Of a stretch of 64,000 nucleotides of DNA, positions 4,206 through 53,239 are shown in pieces; within the stretch, counting starts at the first letter, position 1; every line of letters begins with the position of its first letter. This stretch comes from Clostridiaceae bacterium BL-3. GTDB taxonomy: Bacteria; Bacillota; Clostridia; Clostridiales; Clostridiaceae. The notes under the pieces were generated by a model, which worked only from the letters and a program-made list of their open reading frames with translations, did no database searches and was not told the origin of the DNA. The stretch spans positions 1,488,001 through 1,552,000 of the forward strand of contig CADDXC010000001.1 of the NCBI GenBank assembly GCA_902809985.1. The letters are read 5' to 3'. A program made the translations under genes and the position numbers.

Positions 4206-4805
4206 TTGAGCAGACACCACAGAAGTCATTCTAGAAGACAGCGTTCAAATATCAAAGACATTAACGATGAAAGCTATTATATTGACGATGAAAGATCAAT
4301 TAAAAATTATGATCCCACAGACATAGATGAAAATCAAGAAGAAAGTAATACTACAAATTCAAATGATGAAAACACCTTAAATAACCTATCTGAAAATACT
4401 TCTATTGTTGGAGTTAACAATTCATCTTACAGCAACCATGAAAAACATCATTCTAATAGCCGCACTAGTATAAGATCCATTAGTTTTATAGATAACTTAA
4501 AAAAATATATAGGAAAGACAGTAACTGTATATACAACTGGTGGGGATTCCTGCAGATATAATTTTACTGGAACATTATTAGGAGTAAATAATTATTTTAT
4601 AAGACTTGCAATTAAGTCATGCCCATCTCCAGTTTATCAAACAAGAACTAATTTCAATGATAATTTAGATATCTCCAGCGATCCCTATTCTTCAGCTGAC
4701 AATTGTAATTCAGAATCCAACCCATGCCCCGAAGATACAAACAGTGGTACCATAGCAGATATACCTATTGATAAAATTGCTGCTCTTCTTCGCAGCAATG
4801 TTTAA
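4206..4805 (+). CDS. Hypothetical Ser/Asn/Asp-rich protein with an SM-like C-terminal domain, possibly a spore-surface protein
   Basis: The start is a TTG at 4206 behind AAAGGAG with 10-base spacing. The first 100 residues are low complexity: a basic HHRSHSRRQR head and then many Asp, Asn, Ser and Glu residues, so they are probably disordered. Residues about 98-140 form a compact segment (SFIDNLKKYIGKTVTVYTT, then FTGTLLGVNNYFIRL) whose pattern resembles small SM/Lsm-like beta-barrel domains found in clostridial spore and coat-associated proteins. A second short conserved-looking stretch, IPIDKIAALL, ends the protein. There is no signal peptide or membrane helix. The spore link is inferred from composition only and is uncertain. 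A structured leader precedes it and a REP-like inverted repeat follows 6 bases after the stop. Confidence 0.6.
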   Translation: MSRHHRSHSRRQRSNIKDINDESYYIDDERSIKNYDPTDIDENQEESNTTNSNDENTLNNLSENTSIVGVNNSSYSNHEKHHSNSRTSIRSISFIDNLKKYIGKTVTVYTTGGDSCRYNFTGTLLGVNNYFIRLAIKSCPSPVYQTRTNFNDNLDISSDPYSSADNCNSESNPCPEDTNSGTIADIPIDKIAALLRSNV

Positions 4806-4810
4806 AAAAA

Positions 4811-4863
4811 TGTAAGGGGTCTGACCCCCTTACAAAAAATGTAAGGGGGTCAGACCCCTTACA
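4811..4863. repeat. Perfect 24-bp inverted repeat (REP-like palindrome), probably also a bidirectional terminator
   Basis: Two 24-base arms, each starting TGTAAGGGG, are perfect reverse complements separated by AAAAA. Each arm also contains its own smaller palindrome around GGGGTC...GACCCC, so a double-hairpin or cruciform is possible. GGGGTCTGACCCC-type cores are typical of REP elements mobilised by TnpA-REP (Y1) transposases, although no such transposase is in this window. The right end overlaps the stop codon (4859-4861) of the minus-strand gene next to it. It sits between convergent genes, so it can terminate both transcripts. Confidence 0.8.
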
Positions 4864-6106
4864 GTAGTGAATGAATAACTCCATCTCTGCATTGATTTGG
4901 TGTAATCACATATGGTATGCTTTTGGAATCCCTCATATTGTGAGCCCCAAGGAACCCCCCCGGCTCATACGGGAACATGACAGTATCATACATATTTCCC
5001 AGAGCGGATACAATCTTTACAAGGATAACTTTACGCTTGCCCGGCCGCATAACATCGTTGAACTCTTCTCTTGTATAGGGCATATTATCCAGATTCACAA
5101 GTGCCTTCCTGATTTCCTGGACAATCCGGTCTGCTGCCCGATGTCCCGCCATAACACCTTCTGCCGTTCTTCCTTCACCCTCTTCAAACAGCACATCAAC
5201 ATGAAAGATATAATCAGTTGACTTTGGCGTGCCAGCACGGTCCAATACAACCTGATTTTTCAGTATTCCTTCTGAAGAACCAATATTGCAGGGCTGAAAT
5301 CCGCTCTTATCCTCAACACCAGTTATCATGACGGTTATTCCTGAAAGCAAATGCGTAACGCCCTCCCCCAGTTCTCCCCGCACCTTGCAGGCAATGGGAG
5401 AGTAGTCCAAATTTGAATTGACAAATATATCATAATTTCCCGGCTCAATAATGCTGACCTTGATATCCTTGATCCTGGGTTCCGATTGAATAAGACTCTT
5501 TTCAATTCCCTTTCGTATAGTCAGCACACTATGGTCAATCTCTGTCTTATCACCCAAATGGACTTCATTAATGTGAAATACTTTGCGGGTCAGCCTGCGG
5601 AGATTCTGTTCCTGTTCATCCGGTGCCGTATCCAGCGGTTTTCCGGCTTTCCGGAGCTTATTTTTCACCAGTGCAACAGCCTTCATTGCGTCATAATCCG
5701 TCAGATTGTTCTCTCCCACAACGCAGGATTCATATCCGGATTCACTTTTATTAAAATCTATGACACAGTCCACGTAGCTGTTGGTGCAGACAAGCCGTCC
5801 CTGCTGGGCGATATAGCTGAGTCCAACACTGGGAATTCCCCGTATACCGAGCTGCTCAATTACATTGACAAAATCCACATGATGATTTCCCCATCCATCA
5901 ATTGCAACAATTGCAGCATCTGCACGCATAACCTGTGCTATATCAGCCACCCGTTTTGCCGTATAAATTTTGTCATCGCAGACTTCGGATACACCATCTA
6001 CAATAATACCTGTGAATTCAATATCTTTTTCCTTTGAAAGTGCCTCCGTTACCGGACACCGGAAGTGATGCAGTGTTGTCATTTTAATACTTGGCCCCAG
6101 CCCCAT
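4859..6106 (-). CDS. PrdA paralog: PrdE-PrdD-like fusion, circularly permuted relative to PrdA
   Basis: This 415-aa protein is made of two parts of PrdA in swapped order. Residues 1-155 (GPSIKMTTLHHF, DGWGNHHVDF, GIPSVGLS) align with PrdA residues 403-560, and residues about 170-415 (KVRGELGEGVTHL, GVED, IGSSEG, TPNQCRDGVIH) align with PrdA residues about 160-402. Met1 falls opposite the pyruvoyl-forming Cys403 of PrdA, and the last residue falls opposite Thr402. It therefore has no cysteine to process. In other clostridia PrdE and PrdD are separate accessory proteins, annotated as stabilising D-proline reductase; here they appear fused. The ATG at 6106 with GGAGG 4 bases upstream is preferred over an upstream in-frame start. 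It is the last gene of the prd operon, and its stop codon lies inside the adjacent inverted repeat. Confidence 0.8.
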   Translation of the reverse strand: MGLGPSIKMTTLHHFRCPVTEALSKEKDIEFTGIIVDGVSEVCDDKIYTAKRVADIAQVMRADAAIVAIDGWGNHHVDFVNVIEQLGIRGIPSVGLSYIAQQGRLVCTNSYVDCVIDFNKSESGYESCVVGENNLTDYDAMKAVALVKNKLRKAGKPLDTAPDEQEQNLRRLTRKVFHINEVHLGDKTEIDHSVLTIRKGIEKSLIQSEPRIKDIKVSIIEPGNYDIFVNSNLDYSPIACKVRGELGEGVTHLLSGITVMITGVEDKSGFQPCNIGSSEGILKNQVVLDRAGTPKSTDYIFHVDVLFEEGEGRTAEGVMAGHRAADRIVQEIRKALVNLDNMPYTREEFNDVMRPGKRKVILVKIVSALGNMYDTVMFPYEPGGFLGAHNMRDSKSIPYVITPNQCRDGVIHSLL

Positions 6107-6161
6107 AATATACCTCCATTCTACATAATTCCTTATTCTGTATCTATAACGAAATTTACAC

Positions 6162-6194
6162 AAGGAGGCTCGCCATAATATGGCAAGCCTCTTT
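6162..6194 (-). other. Intercistronic hairpin between prdB and the PrdE-PrdD-like gene
   Basis: On the minus strand a stem of about 13-15 bp (GGCTTGCCAT with ATGGCGAGCC) lies 22 bases after the prdB stop. There is no clean T-run after it, so it may be an mRNA-stabilising or partial termination element that lowers expression of the last gene. Confidence 0.55.
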
Positions 6195-6216
6195 GTAGTA
6201 TTTTAATAAAACAGAT

Positions 6217-6942
6217 TTATACGTTATGACGGTATTCGTAAGGCAATACTTTTGTCTGATTAAAACTTGGACAATCACGAACCCATTCCAGAGATTCTTT
6301 TACGATTGCTGTCTGCATTTCCACATTGTTTGGTTCGCCGGCATTTGATCCTATTGGCACATGAGGAGCTGTAATTCTAGGTGCTCCCTGCTGTCTTGCA
6401 ATAGGAGGCAGTGCAGCAATTACGCAACAGCTCATGCCTGCTTCTTCGCAGCATCTGGTAACAATTGTTGCTGAACGATGGCAGGTTCCGCATCCACCTG
6501 TGCAAAGAACGATATCTACACCCTGTTCCCTTAACTTTCGGGCAATTTCCGGACCTGTCTCATTTCTGAATTTTTCAACATTTCCACCGCCGCCCATGAA
6601 TGTATAAGTCTCCTTGGGCAGAGAGCCAATAAATCCTTCGTCTACTAGTTCATGAAGACGATCTATTGGAAACATAGCATTAACGTCTTTATTGATATCG
6701 GAGTTATCAAATCCGCCATGCGTTACCATCAACTGATCAGACGGCGTATCAAATGGAATTACACGATAAGAGAAATCACCAGATGTATTATATGGTGTCT
6801 GGTCTTTTTTATGAATTCCACCTGCTGTAATAAAAGCAACCTTGCACTCATTTAATGGTTTTTTCAATTCTGTAAATACTGGTTTCGGTGTAACCGGTAC
6901 AAAGATCTCGGATTGCATTCCTTTTTTTGTTGTTAAACTCAT
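6217..6942 (-). CDS. prdB: D-proline reductase subunit PrdB (gamma), cysteine variant
   Basis: PrdB is the 26-kDa subunit that attacks D-proline during its reductive ring cleavage to 5-aminovalerate in Stickland fermentation. At 241 aa it has the usual length. The redox motif is CTGGCGTCHRS, with Cys151 where characterised PrdB proteins (for example Clostridium sticklandii) carry selenocysteine. The codon here is TGC (complement of 6490-6492), not TGA, so no selenocysteine machinery is needed. A second CxxC-like group (RCCEEAGMSCC) follows. The start ATG is preceded by GGAGG. The gene lies between a small two-repeat protein (12-base gap) and the PrdE-PrdD-like fusion. Whether the Cys form is fully active cannot be judged from sequence. 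Confidence 0.93.
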   Translation of the reverse strand: MSLTTKKGMQSEIFVPVTPKPVFTELKKPLNECKVAFITAGGIHKKDQTPYNTSGDFSYRVIPFDTPSDQLMVTHGGFDNSDINKDVNAMFPIDRLHELVDEGFIGSLPKETYTFMGGGGNVEKFRNETGPEIARKLREQGVDIVLCTGGCGTCHRSATIVTRCCEEAGMSCCVIAALPPIARQQGAPRITAPHVPIGSNAGEPNNVEMQTAIVKESLEWVRDCPSFNQTKVLPYEYRHNV

Positions 6943-19553: not shown

Positions 19554-20624
19554 TTAAATATTTTCTTCTATAGGATATTTTCCATAAGTCCTGGCAGCAT
19601 CCATGAGAAATTCAATATTTTCTCTGGAAGTTGCCATAGGCACCTTGCATCCAGTACTTAATACAAATCCCTTGGGATTGTTGTAAGCTTTTCTAATGCA
19701 TTTTCTAGCCTCCTGAAAAATTTCATCTTTAGTTCCGTTGCATACTATCTCTATGGGTTCCACATTTCCCATTAAGCCCACCCGGTCACCAATGGATTTC
19801 TTAACTTCCTCCAGATCCACCACATTGTCCACACTAAACATCTGTATTCCGGTATCCGCTATATCCTCCCATACTCCCTTTGTATTTCCGCATATGTGAA
19901 TTGTCGGTGCACTTCCAAACTTTTCTACTATTCTATCAACACATCTTTTCAGATAAGGTTTGACAAAAGTCCTGAATTGTCTGGGACTGATCACCGTGAG
20001 AGAAGCTACTGGTTCAGAAATACATGGTTTTACACCTATATCACAAACTGCATCTATATAGTTGAAAATGCTCTCTGTAGCTATATTCAAGAGCTTATGT
20101 ACCCATTCGGGATTTCTCAGCGTGTCTCTTAAAAAAACATCAACCCCCCTCAAAGATGCCGCCGTAGTAAAAGGTCCTCCGAAGTCGCTTGAGATATCAA
20201 CTTCTCTACCTATTTCCTGATTTATTATTTTTGCAGCCTCTAAAAACAGCGGAAGTCTCCCATCCTTATGTGGATCTGCCGGTTTAAGTTTATCTATATC
20301 GTCATACTCTTTCACTACGGGTATATCTACATAAGGCATGTCATCATCAGGATAGGCCAGTACCGTACCCATGGCCTCCGCAATGCCAAACAGATTGGGA
20401 CCTCCTCCTGCAGAGTCAAATCCAAAAGTTCTATAGAGATTTATTTCATTTTTGGCCAGTAATTTATAATCATGGCATAATTCAGATATCTTAACCCCGA
20501 TAAACTTTGCCCCCACTTCACCTACAAAAGGGCAGCATTGAATACGATCTGCCATCTTTCCAGAACTTATGGCTGTTTCTCTTTCTTTTGGTGTCATTTC
20601 ATCTTTATAAAGTAAATTTTCCAT
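19554..20624 (-). CDS. UroD-family corrinoid methyltransferase-like protein, copy 2
   Basis: Paralog of the gene at 15565-16635, 356 aa, differing at only a small minority of positions (for example GREVDISSDFGG against GKEVGVSSGFGG, and MGNVEPIEIV against MGNVKPIDTV). The substrate-pocket and metal motifs (FGFDSAGGGPNLFG, HICG, STGCKVP) are kept, so both copies look functional. The start at 20624 and the GGGGTG site match copy 1. The upstream stretch of about 80 bases is also duplicated, so both should be controlled alike. The differences cluster in a few loops, which could mean different methyl donors or acceptors. The family assignment is firm, the substrate unknown. Confidence 0.85.
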   Translation of the reverse strand: MENLLYKDEMTPKERETAISSGKMADRIQCCPFVGEVGAKFIGVKISELCHDYKLLAKNEINLYRTFGFDSAGGGPNLFGIAEAMGTVLAYPDDDMPYVDIPVVKEYDDIDKLKPADPHKDGRLPLFLEAAKIINQEIGREVDISSDFGGPFTTAASLRGVDVFLRDTLRNPEWVHKLLNIATESIFNYIDAVCDIGVKPCISEPVASLTVISPRQFRTFVKPYLKRCVDRIVEKFGSAPTIHICGNTKGVWEDIADTGIQMFSVDNVVDLEEVKKSIGDRVGLMGNVEPIEIVCNGTKDEIFQEARKCIRKAYNNPKGFVLSTGCKVPMATSRENIEFLMDAARTYGKYPIEENI

Positions 20625-20760: not shown

Positions 20761-20788
20761 AAATAATGGAGCTATAGCTCCATTATTT
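20761..20788 (-). terminator. Terminator after the 54-aa microprotein gene
   Basis: A perfect 28-base palindrome (AAATAATGGAGCTA and its complement) is followed by a T-run on the minus strand. It lies 20 bases after the microprotein stop and isolates that unit from the UroD gene. Confidence 0.85.
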
Positions 20789-20807
20789 AAAGTCATTATC
20801 AAGTAAT

Positions 20808-20972
20808 TTAGAATGTCATAAAAACTGTAGAATAGTCACAGCTATCATTTAAACCATCTGATTTCATATCTCTCAAATATTCATAGTAGAAATTTGTATT
20901 TTCGTATATTACAGAATTATCCTGAGCATTTTTTTGCAAATCAGCTTTAGTAAACTTTTTAGAATCAAACAT
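20808..20972 (-). CDS. 54-aa microprotein behind tandem T-boxes, no known family
   Basis: This short gene has a strong ribosome site (AAAGGAGG, 7 bases from the ATG), a defined stop and its own terminator. The peptide begins MFDSKKFTKADLQKNAQD, has an aromatic middle (VIYENTNFYYEYLRDM) and ends SCDYSTVFMTF with one cysteine. It has no signal peptide or membrane helix and is not rich in isoleucine (one Ile). It is therefore not a classical leader peptide with a run of control codons. It is the only gene downstream of two tandem isoleucine-type T-box elements, with the promoter at 21543-21571. It could be a regulatory peptide, a small enzyme partner or a modified-peptide precursor; I do not recognise it. 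Confidence 0.7.
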   Translation of the reverse strand: MFDSKKFTKADLQKNAQDNSVIYENTNFYYEYLRDMKSDGLNDSCDYSTVFMTF

Positions 20973-21069
20973 TTTAAATCCTCCTTTAACATATTTTGAT
21001 AGGTAATATATAAATTTTCACTGGCCAGATGAAAATATATCTATCTTATATAAAACTCAAGGGTAATAA

Positions 21070-21300
21070 AAAAAAACAGTCCTTCTGCCTGGGGCGAGAA
21101 GTCTGTTCGCGGTACCACCCAATTTTTTACTCAATTACATAACGGCTTGCACCGGCACAGCTTACTCTTGTTTCAGCCTGCAGCTTAAGGGTGATCTTCA
21201 ATGCGAAGCATTTATGAGTTTTCACCATTCCTCACTCTCTTTAAAATATTTTTCGCATTTACATGTCCCTTTCCTCGCTGTTAAAATATAAAATTTTACA
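21070..21300 (-). promoter_or_regulatory. T-box riboswitch 1 (proximal), isoleucine specifier
   Basis: On the minus strand, the antiterminator motif GGGTGGTACCGCG (complement of 21108-21120) is followed by the competing terminator hairpin and a run of T. The Stem I specifier position reads ATC (complement of 21193-21195), an isoleucine codon. The register was fixed by aligning with the tryptophan T-box of this window, where the same position reads TGG. It lies about 95 bases upstream of the 54-aa gene. Confidence 0.92.
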
Positions 21301-21313
21301 TCCATTTTAAACT

Positions 21314-21535
21314 ATAAAAAAAACAGTCCTTCTGCCTGGGGCGAGAAGTCTGTTTCGCGGTACCACCCAATTTTTTACTCAATTACATAACGGCTTGCAC
21401 CGGCACAGCTTACTCTTGTTTCAGCCTACAACTCAAGGGTGATTTTCAATATGAAATATTTATGAGTTTCCACCATTCCTCACTCTCTTCAAAATATAAT
21501 TCATATTTACATATCCCTATCTTTGTTTTTAATTT
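21314..21535 (-). promoter_or_regulatory. T-box riboswitch 2 (distal), isoleucine specifier
   Basis: A second complete T-box with its own terminator, nearly identical to T-box 1 in its 3' half. The T-box motif is the complement of 21356-21368 and the specifier ATC is the complement of 21441-21443. Transcripts must pass both terminators in series to reach the 54-aa gene. Confidence 0.92.
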
Positions 21536-21542
21536 GTATGTA

Positions 21543-21571
21543 ATTTTACTACATATGTTCATATAAGTCAA
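21543..21571 (-). promoter_or_regulatory. Promoter of the tandem T-box unit
   Basis: The minus strand reads TTGACT, 17 bases, TAAAAT, immediately upstream of the distal T-box. Confidence 0.75.
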
Positions 21572-33059: not shown

Positions 33060-33405
33060 ACAAAAAAGCCATTTCATCCACAAACTGGGACGAAATGACC
33101 GCGGTGCCACCCATTATTAATTTGTAAAACAGATTTTGAGAAATAAAAAAGCATTCCATCCAAAAGGACGAAATGCAAAATTTCGCTGTACCACCTATCT
33201 ACAAACTATCTCATTCAGGTACGGATTTTACTCGATACCCTGTCCTTTTAACGGTAGACTACCGTCTCCTGCTACTATCATTTCGCAGGGCACCTCGAAG
33301 ACCCATTCAATACAGGCTACAGCATTCGGCTCACACTGCCCCGAACTCGCTTGAACTAAATTCCTCTACCTACTCTTTCTTCTCATAAGTTTTAGCAGTT
33401 AAATT
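33060..33405 (-). promoter_or_regulatory. Tryptophan T-box with two successive antiterminator/terminator modules
   Basis: The minus strand carries Stem I with specifier TGG (complement of 33303-33305). It then has a first T-box motif (GGTGGTACAGCG, complement of 33184-33196) with terminator arms ending in a T-run near 33147, and then a second motif GGGTGGCACCGCGG (complement of 33099-33112) with its own terminator ending near 33062. There is only one Stem I, so one tRNA sensor is followed by two decision points, or the second module is a partial duplication. It controls trpE and the whole operon. Confidence 0.92.
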
Positions 33406-43175: not shown

Positions 43176-43296
43176 GTAGCAGAGTAAATATTATGCATAA
43201 AGTGTTAGAGAATGGGAGGTTGTCTCTAAACGAAAAGCTTAAATGCATTACATTATTGATTTAAAGCTTATGATATAATATTGCTTCCGCTGTTAC
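43176..43296 (+). promoter_or_regulatory. THF (tetrahydrofolate) riboswitch
   Basis: The element matches the THF-I motif: P1 GTAGCAG (43176-43182) pairs with CTGTTAC (43290-43296). The conserved core AGAGTAAATATTAT, AAGTGT and GAATGGGAGGTTGT is present, and the 3' strand ends in ATTGCTTCCGCTG. It directly precedes a FolT-type transporter gene, the standard context. The bases TTACATTAAAG at its 3' end can pair with the left arm of the following hairpin, which gives an on/off switch. Confidence 0.88.
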
Positions 43297-46077: not shown

Positions 46078-46320
46078 AAAAAACCAAACCACTCACCCTG
46101 GGGCGAGAGTTTGGTTCGCGGTACCACCCAATTTTTTTCTCAACTACAATAACGGCTTTGCCGGTACAGCTTACTTCTATTTCAGCCTACAACTCCAGGG
46201 TGATTTTCAATAGTTTATAATCTATGAGCTTTCACCTTATCTCACTCTCTTTAAAATCTTTTACTACCTACTCTTCCCTATCACGGTTTTATATATTTTT
46301 AAATTACATTCACAAATTAA
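46078..46320 (-). promoter_or_regulatory. Isoleucine T-box riboswitch of ilvB
   Basis: The minus strand has Stem I with specifier ATC (complement of 46202-46204), the antiterminator motif GGGTGGTACCGCG (complement of 46117-46129) and a terminator with a T-run near 46080. It is closely related to the tandem T-boxes at 21070-21535. Confidence 0.94.
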
Positions 46321-53135: not shown

Positions 53136-53239
53136 TTCTCATCTCTCAGGTTAACCTGCTGGAATTGGCACCATTGAATAATATAAATTCAGGTTGCCGG
53201 GTATCATAGGGCCAGTCCCTCCACCTCTCTTGATAAGAA
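53136..53239 (-). promoter_or_regulatory. SAM-I (S-box) riboswitch
   Basis: The minus strand has P1 TTCTTATC with GATGAGAA, then AAGAGAGGTGGAGGGACTGG shortened to its core (GGTGGAGGGA), CCCTATGATACCCGGCAACC and GGTGCCAATTCC. After that come CAGCAGGT-like and CTGAGAGATGAG bases. These are the universal S-box positions. It lies upstream of the 145-aa gene. Confidence 0.96.

Follow-up and report, generated by a model that had tools for sequence, protein, structure and literature searches.

We analysed a 64,000-nucleotide stretch of the genome of Clostridiaceae bacterium BL-3 (contig CADDXC010000001.1, positions 1,488,001 to 1,552,000; hereafter, the window), focusing on a unit at 20761-21571 in which two tandem T-box leaders precede the gene for a 54-residue microprotein. 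Along the minus strand, the unit comprises a promoter-like site, T-box 1, T-box 2, a hairpin, a Shine-Dalgarno sequence, the open reading frame (ORF) and an intrinsic terminator. The promoter-like site (TTGACT-17-TAAAAT, 21543-21571) scores 10/12 in a consensus scan and is weak on its own; sites this good are frequent by chance (14 found, against 10.2 expected in shuffled sequences). Both T-boxes match family RF00230 at full length and above its gathering cut-off of 93 bits: T-box 1 (21334-21532, 115.4 bits) carries the specifier AUC (isoleucine) at 21443-21441, and T-box 2 (21087-21284, 113.6 bits) carries the same codon at 21195-21193. They are 89.9% identical, both present the T-box bulge GGGUGGUACCGCG, and each ends in a predicted terminator hairpin with a U tract (21320-21356 and 21074-21108, respectively), with z-scores of only -1.6 for the first and -3.9 for the second. 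Next comes a hairpin with a UGGCCA loop (21014-21036), of a type that recurs in leucine T-box leaders; its fold taken alone is unremarkable (z -1.1), and no Rfam family reaches its gathering score there. The Shine-Dalgarno sequence AAAGGAGG (20980-20987) stands ahead of the ORF (20808-20972, stop included, with its ATG at 20972 and its stop ending at 20808), and the 12-pair terminator 3' of the ORF (20761-20788) is matched in stability by none of 200 shuffled sequences.

The original prediction had described this unit as a promoter, two full-length AUC T-boxes, a strong ribosome site, a 54-residue ORF and a terminator, and each of these elements, the promoter as a promoter-like site, is found in its place. 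Its specifier assignment, calibrated on a trp T-box, also holds: in the GAA...XXXA register given in PMC5794164, the trp T-box at 33083-33395 yields UGG in the same place. The microprotein is likewise the only product of the unit, the terminator being followed by the next gene on the strand, which encodes a URO-D family protein (19554-20624). This gene shares the strand and lies about 137 bases past the terminator, as would suit a reading in which transcription runs through, the URO-D family gene is the true target and the small ORF is merely its leader. We regard such read-through as very improbable: the intervening terminator is strong, none of the loci read for the related microproteins described below carries a URO-D gene downstream, and we know of no link between URO-D proteins and isoleucine.

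The microprotein had been called an orphan without a known family, a description that stands for the family and falls for the orphan. Relatives occur in 10 other genomes from five other genera; of the 225 genomes that represent the order (one per species), 11 carry a member, its own included. In a first search of 59 genomes, own genome included, G037 and G015 (which has two tandem copies) matched clearly and G019 more weakly; profile searches within the taxonomic family and across the order added G147, G149, G150, G151, G152, G033 and G042. For G033 and G042, homology is based on profile E-values of 8.9e-6 and 5.5e-7, respectively, and on the shared ending, backed in G042 by a T-box-leuA context. 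Among the 225 genomes, 30 had a match at E<=0.01, and 19 were set aside as partial matches in open frames of at least 189 residues; of the rows set aside, context was read for the second G042 locus (E 0.006) only. A G012 match from the 59-genome search (E 2.4e-4, in a 439-residue frame) was set aside despite an E-value better than that of G019. Beyond the order, a class sample of 391 genomes held two credible carriers with either profile (G000 and G019; 9 and 6 of the 391 gave some match at E<=0.01), and a phylum sample of 398 held one, the own genome, in which no second copy was found. Named records with relatives are C. carboxidivorans P7, C. drakei SL1 and C. muellerianum P21 (three among 44 pattern matches). 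Scans of the 11 members gave no fitting Pfam, NCBIfam or PHROG family (best E-values of 0.02 in Pfam and 0.063 in PHROGs, each for one member, and nothing in NCBIfam), a profile search of the PDB gave no convincing match (best E 2.9), and open-access literature searches turned up no such microprotein. Mobile origins were rejected in turn: no match at E<=1 was found in 50,697 phage or 72,556 plasmid records, and none of 29 pattern-matching stretches on viral contigs is a relative.

When the 11 members are aligned, the N-terminal half varies and the conservation lies in a C-terminal block of about 26 residues that reaches the stop codon, with a rough consensus of Y-x-x-Y-L ... K ... D-Y-[CS]-x-x-F-M-x-[FLV]. 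Residues Y32, K37, D46, F51 and M52 (window numbering) are invariant, and the STVFMTF-type C-terminus singled out beforehand is indeed the conserved part of the protein. Over the C-terminal 26 codons, few as they are, nonsynonymous divergence (dN) is 0.03-0.15 against a synonymous divergence (dS) of 0.28-0.97 in the pairs G015a/G015b, G015a/G149, G015b/G149 and window/G015b; for window/G149 and window/G150, dN is 0.19 and 0.33, respectively, and dS exceeds 1 in both, and the 11 codons compared in G150/G152 yielded no usable dS. As judged from these estimates, the C-terminal block is under purifying selection, and a chance ORF is ruled out by the homologues and by dN well below dS. A short, hydrophobic, conserved C-terminus, often with a cysteine, might also recall a secreted or modified peptide, such as a pheromone, a bacteriocin or a ribosomally synthesised and post-translationally modified peptide (RiPP). 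This explanation seems to us far-fetched, given that the N-terminus is not hydrophobic, that the G033 member has no cysteine, and that no modification or peptide-export genes were recognised by eye, without a profile scan, beside the copies read; the usual RiPP pattern is, moreover, the reverse of a conserved end with a variable start.

The family is also distinctive in composition. Leucine, isoleucine and valine make up 4.5-18% of residues in the 11 members, against 25.7% in the 42 window ORFs of at least 200 residues, and are replaced by a preference for phenylalanine, tyrosine and methionine. As a share of large hydrophobic residues they average 0.35 in the members and 0.70 in 265 chunks of 35 window ORFs, a background that may include a few spurious frames; six of the 11 members fall under every background chunk, and the least extreme (G149) is equalled by 6.8% of chunks. 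The members, being related, are not independent cases. Low contents of these residues would be expected of a protein that has to be made while the corresponding tRNAs are uncharged. The same avoidance disfavours an attenuator leader peptide that counts codons, in which the regulatory codons should be enriched and are not; the pathway gene that such a leader would have directly downstream is absent in the window and present in 8 of the 10 other genomes.

The window microprotein has T-boxes upstream, and so do its relatives in 9 of the 10 other genomes (eight recognised by Rfam, G147 by motif), which bears out the expectation of homologues near T-boxes in other clostridia. Gene names at these loci are readings of translations, with the LeuA proteins of G015, G019 and the own genome checked against Pfam. 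In 8 of the 10 genomes, the microprotein gene is the first behind the T-boxes of an operon led by ilvC or leuA: it is followed by ilvC-leuACDB-ilvBN in G015, G149, G150 and G152, by leuACDB in G151, by leuA-leuCDB-ilvBN in G019, by leuA, a citramalate-synthase-like gene and leuCDB-ilvBN in G042, and by ilvC-leuACDB, as far as the record extends, in C. carboxidivorans (record L063, in which the G147 locus was read, the coordinates being identical). The microprotein gene thus belongs with the leu/ilv pathway, since leuA and leuCDB follow in all eight operon cases, and a lone product is not the rule that the BL-3 locus had suggested. Three copies stand alone, with no pathway gene seen downstream, and each is closed by a strong hairpin, of 12 pairs in the window, 17 in G037 and 13 in G033, whose contig ends about 140 bases past the gene. 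In the own genome, leuACDB, ilvC-ilvD and ilvB form separate units, ilvB lying 25 kb off, inside the window. The gene is tandemly duplicated in G015 (L066, 2930-3344), where both copies have their own Shine-Dalgarno sequence, and in C. carboxidivorans (L063, 5709-6102).

A small ORF between the T-box and the first structural gene, as seen in eight genomes, invites an explanation in cis, in which the nascent C-terminus would arrest the ribosome near the stop codon and tune the ilv/leu genes downstream, the window copy being a leftover. Conservation that covers only some 26 residues before the stop speaks for such a leader peptide, as this is about the length that the ribosome exit tunnel holds. 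So do hairpins between the microprotein gene and leuA in G042 (L110, 5661-5734, 17 pairs) and G151 (L069, 12210-12320), where the leader reading is open; these hairpins perhaps serve unequal expression of the microprotein and leuA. At the G015 and G150 junctions with ilvC, in contrast, folding of the two genomes showed no folded element, and leucine, isoleucine and valine codons are too few for codon-based attenuation. Furthermore, the lone copies are intact, terminated and not followed by a pathway gene (in G033, up to the contig end soon after it). In the own genome, where the pathway genes form separate units, the microprotein has nevertheless kept its T-boxes and has a terminator, as in G037, and a purely cis-acting leader would be useless there. 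We therefore consider the cis explanation rather unlikely, and action in trans likelier, on the grounds of the standalone copies, the low branched-chain content and the unstructured junctions with ilvC.

The specifier codons show how the window unit departs from its relatives. All 16 of the relatives' T-boxes specify CUC (leucine), with the base after the codon being C, not the usual A, in G150_1 and G152_2, whereas both window T-boxes specify AUC, one base away. Isoleucine control is thus a local switch, and the isoleucine link of the original prediction is not conserved. Elsewhere in the own genome, the specifier is CUC in both T-boxes of leuACDB (one base short before the codon, and read from the downstream side), GUA for ilvC-ilvD and AUC for ilvB. 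Window T-box 1 is 86.2% identical to the leucine T-box G149_1, against 79.1% to the isoleucine T-box of the own ilvB; in a quick tree, the window pair groups with the T-boxes that precede ilvB and ilvC in the own genome (support 0.84). Probably, a gene that once led a leucine-controlled operon was split off, its leader was re-tuned to isoleucine, and the T-box was duplicated or converted. That the split left behind only a relic, a leader and first small ORF without function in the own genome, would fit with pathway genes lying elsewhere under other T-boxes, with the lack of the microprotein in the 12 other genomes of the window's genus in the order profile search, and with G037, the other lone T-box case, giving no LeuA match at 1e-100 (more distant LeuA proteins were not sought). 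We doubt that this is so, as both T-boxes, the Shine-Dalgarno sequence, the ORF and the terminator are intact, the conserved block is preserved, and the same change in both specifiers is easier to explain by adaptation, or by a duplication that followed the change, than by decay.

The own genome has a further isoleucine (AUC) T-box (L145 4150-4348, plus strand; G000:C1:1243149-1243347), which is oriented divergently to the ilvC T-box. No ORF with an evident ribosome site follows it, and it runs towards the 3' end of a gltD-like gene in convergent orientation (4760-6229, minus strand), making an antisense-acting T-box possible. Other riboswitches in the window are the trp T-box, a THF riboswitch (43178-43294), the isoleucine T-box before ilvB (46096-46293) and a SAM riboswitch (53136-53239).

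The UGGCCA-loop hairpin, which in the window sits between T-box 2 and the ORF, is found before the microprotein of G150, G151 and G152, before leuA in the own genome and seven of the same genus (G001, G002, G003, G005, G006, G007 and G009), and before a major facilitator superfamily (MFS) transporter in the own genome and six others (G003, G005, G006, G008, G009 and G011); besides the window copy (21014-21036, minus strand), its loci are L144, L166, L167, L169-L178, L186-L188 and L193. A model built from eight of these elements was used to score 150 first-look candidates in each genome; 14 of 16 genomes had a match at E<=1, and the search also gave a few weak places of unread or seemingly unrelated context (G012, two in G001 and one in G000). 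G015 and G149 have a hairpin there that lacks the UGGCCA loop, and the short spacers of G037 and G019 showed none. A T-box motif lies upstream in all 13 same-genus loci checked, and the 22 specifiers readable by pattern at same-genus hairpin loci (none in G007 and one of two in G002) are all CUC, as are both specifiers of the own MFS leader. The hairpin is thus a feature of leucine T-box leaders, one that the window microprotein keeps under isoleucine T-boxes. Across 19 elements, sense-strand stem mismatches comprise 15 G-U against 2 A-C, or about 9 against 2 when seven identical MFS stems are counted once, with bulges picked to maximise pairing. The G-U excess argues for an RNA hairpin, which the element probably is, over the DNA operator that we rejected, with the caveats of the chosen bulges and of a score on the opposite strand too; a consensus fold has two-sided changes in four of eight pairs, beside several broken cells. 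One possibility is that it acts as a 5' stabiliser of a processed mRNA. The loop includes CCA, as does the tRNA acceptor end.

Taken together, these data suggest that the microprotein is probably a small regulator made in branched-chain amino acid shortage. In each T-box, uncharged tRNA-Ile (tRNA-Leu in the relatives) would pair with the specifier and with the bulge that contacts its acceptor end; both terminators would be bypassed, and the microprotein would be translated from its strong ribosome site. It would then use the conserved C-terminal block to influence branched-chain amino acid metabolism in trans. In the simplest form of this action, it would bind and relieve a repressor or a feedback-inhibited pathway protein, much as anti-TRAP (described below) does for tryptophan. 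We give an even chance to this reading, that a small acidic microprotein made only when branched-chain aminoacyl-tRNA is short acts in trans on this metabolism; the leader hairpin in common with leuA and the MFS transporter counts in its favour. Of the regulatory or protective role on uncharged tRNA-Ile first proposed, with enzyme or protease inhibition or signalling as candidate modes, a regulatory role would still be the best reading of the locus, while the relatives' T-boxes specify leucine. Somewhat short of even, in our judgement, are the prospects of the fuller proposal of a new family of microproteins controlled by tRNA charging, acting in trans as anti-repressors or enzyme de-inhibitors, re-tuned from leucine to isoleucine after leaving the operon, and belonging to a leuA/MFS/microprotein regulon marked by the UGGCCA hairpin.

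Several observations weigh against action in trans. The G033 microprotein has no T-box; the spread is patchy, given the 12 congeners without a copy and one of seven genomes of genus g4 that also lacks it; long hairpins precede leuA in two of four folded operon junctions; and a conserved block that reaches the stop codon is arrest-peptide-like. Nor do two candidate targets stand out. Of 23 genomes checked, 11 have the microprotein and 12 do not, and CodY occurs in every one, so it is not singled out as a discriminating partner. The LeuA of G019 (L073, 3167-4315) lacks the allosteric LeuA_dimer domain although it leads a leucine operon governed by a pair of CUC T-boxes, so relief of leucine feedback on this domain cannot be the general job of the family, and the domain was dropped as a target. 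The standalone units let cis and trans action be told apart, which makes the proposal directly testable, and the family would offer a handle on branched-chain amino acid control in clostridia such as C. carboxidivorans and C. drakei.

Among known systems, the S. aureus ilv-leu operon also has a small ORF ahead of branched-chain genes, as in the relatives described here; its attenuator peptide, however, is leucine-rich (PMC5794164), whereas the window microprotein is poor in leucine, isoleucine and valine. Tandem T-boxes occur before leuA, ilvB, ilvC and other genes in Bacillota, with the same RNA architecture as the window unit; the portion of that source available to us mentions no microprotein in these leaders (PMC12452182), in contrast to the window, where the unit encodes nothing but the microprotein and its codon specifies isoleucine. 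Genes of undefined function behind T-boxes have also been counted, 54 in all, including LBA1071 of L. acidophilus, termed isoleucine-related, and resemble the window microprotein in this placement (PMC2494555).

The closest parallel in design is anti-TRAP (AT, yczA/rtpA) of B. subtilis, a protein of very small size that is switched on, via a T-box, when tRNA is uncharged, and that regulates the tryptophan pathway in trans and is not an enzyme (PMC11255114); it is also listed as a T-box-controlled 'hypothetical' (PMC2494555). The window microprotein is likewise a small protein under T-box control, but anti-TRAP responds to tryptophan, not leucine or isoleucine, and is a zinc protein that binds TRAP. 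Zinc-type cysteines are not conserved in the microprotein family (one in the window protein and none in G033), and scans of Pfam and NCBIfam at E<=10 gave no family for the window protein, anti-TRAP itself not having been aligned with it. The new family may work like anti-TRAP without a sequence link having been found. To our knowledge, anti-TRAP is the only known T-box-controlled microprotein effector; if the proposed action in trans is true, the leucine/isoleucine branch would hold a second such family, and the production of a microprotein in response to uncharged tRNA would emerge as a recurrent regulatory design.
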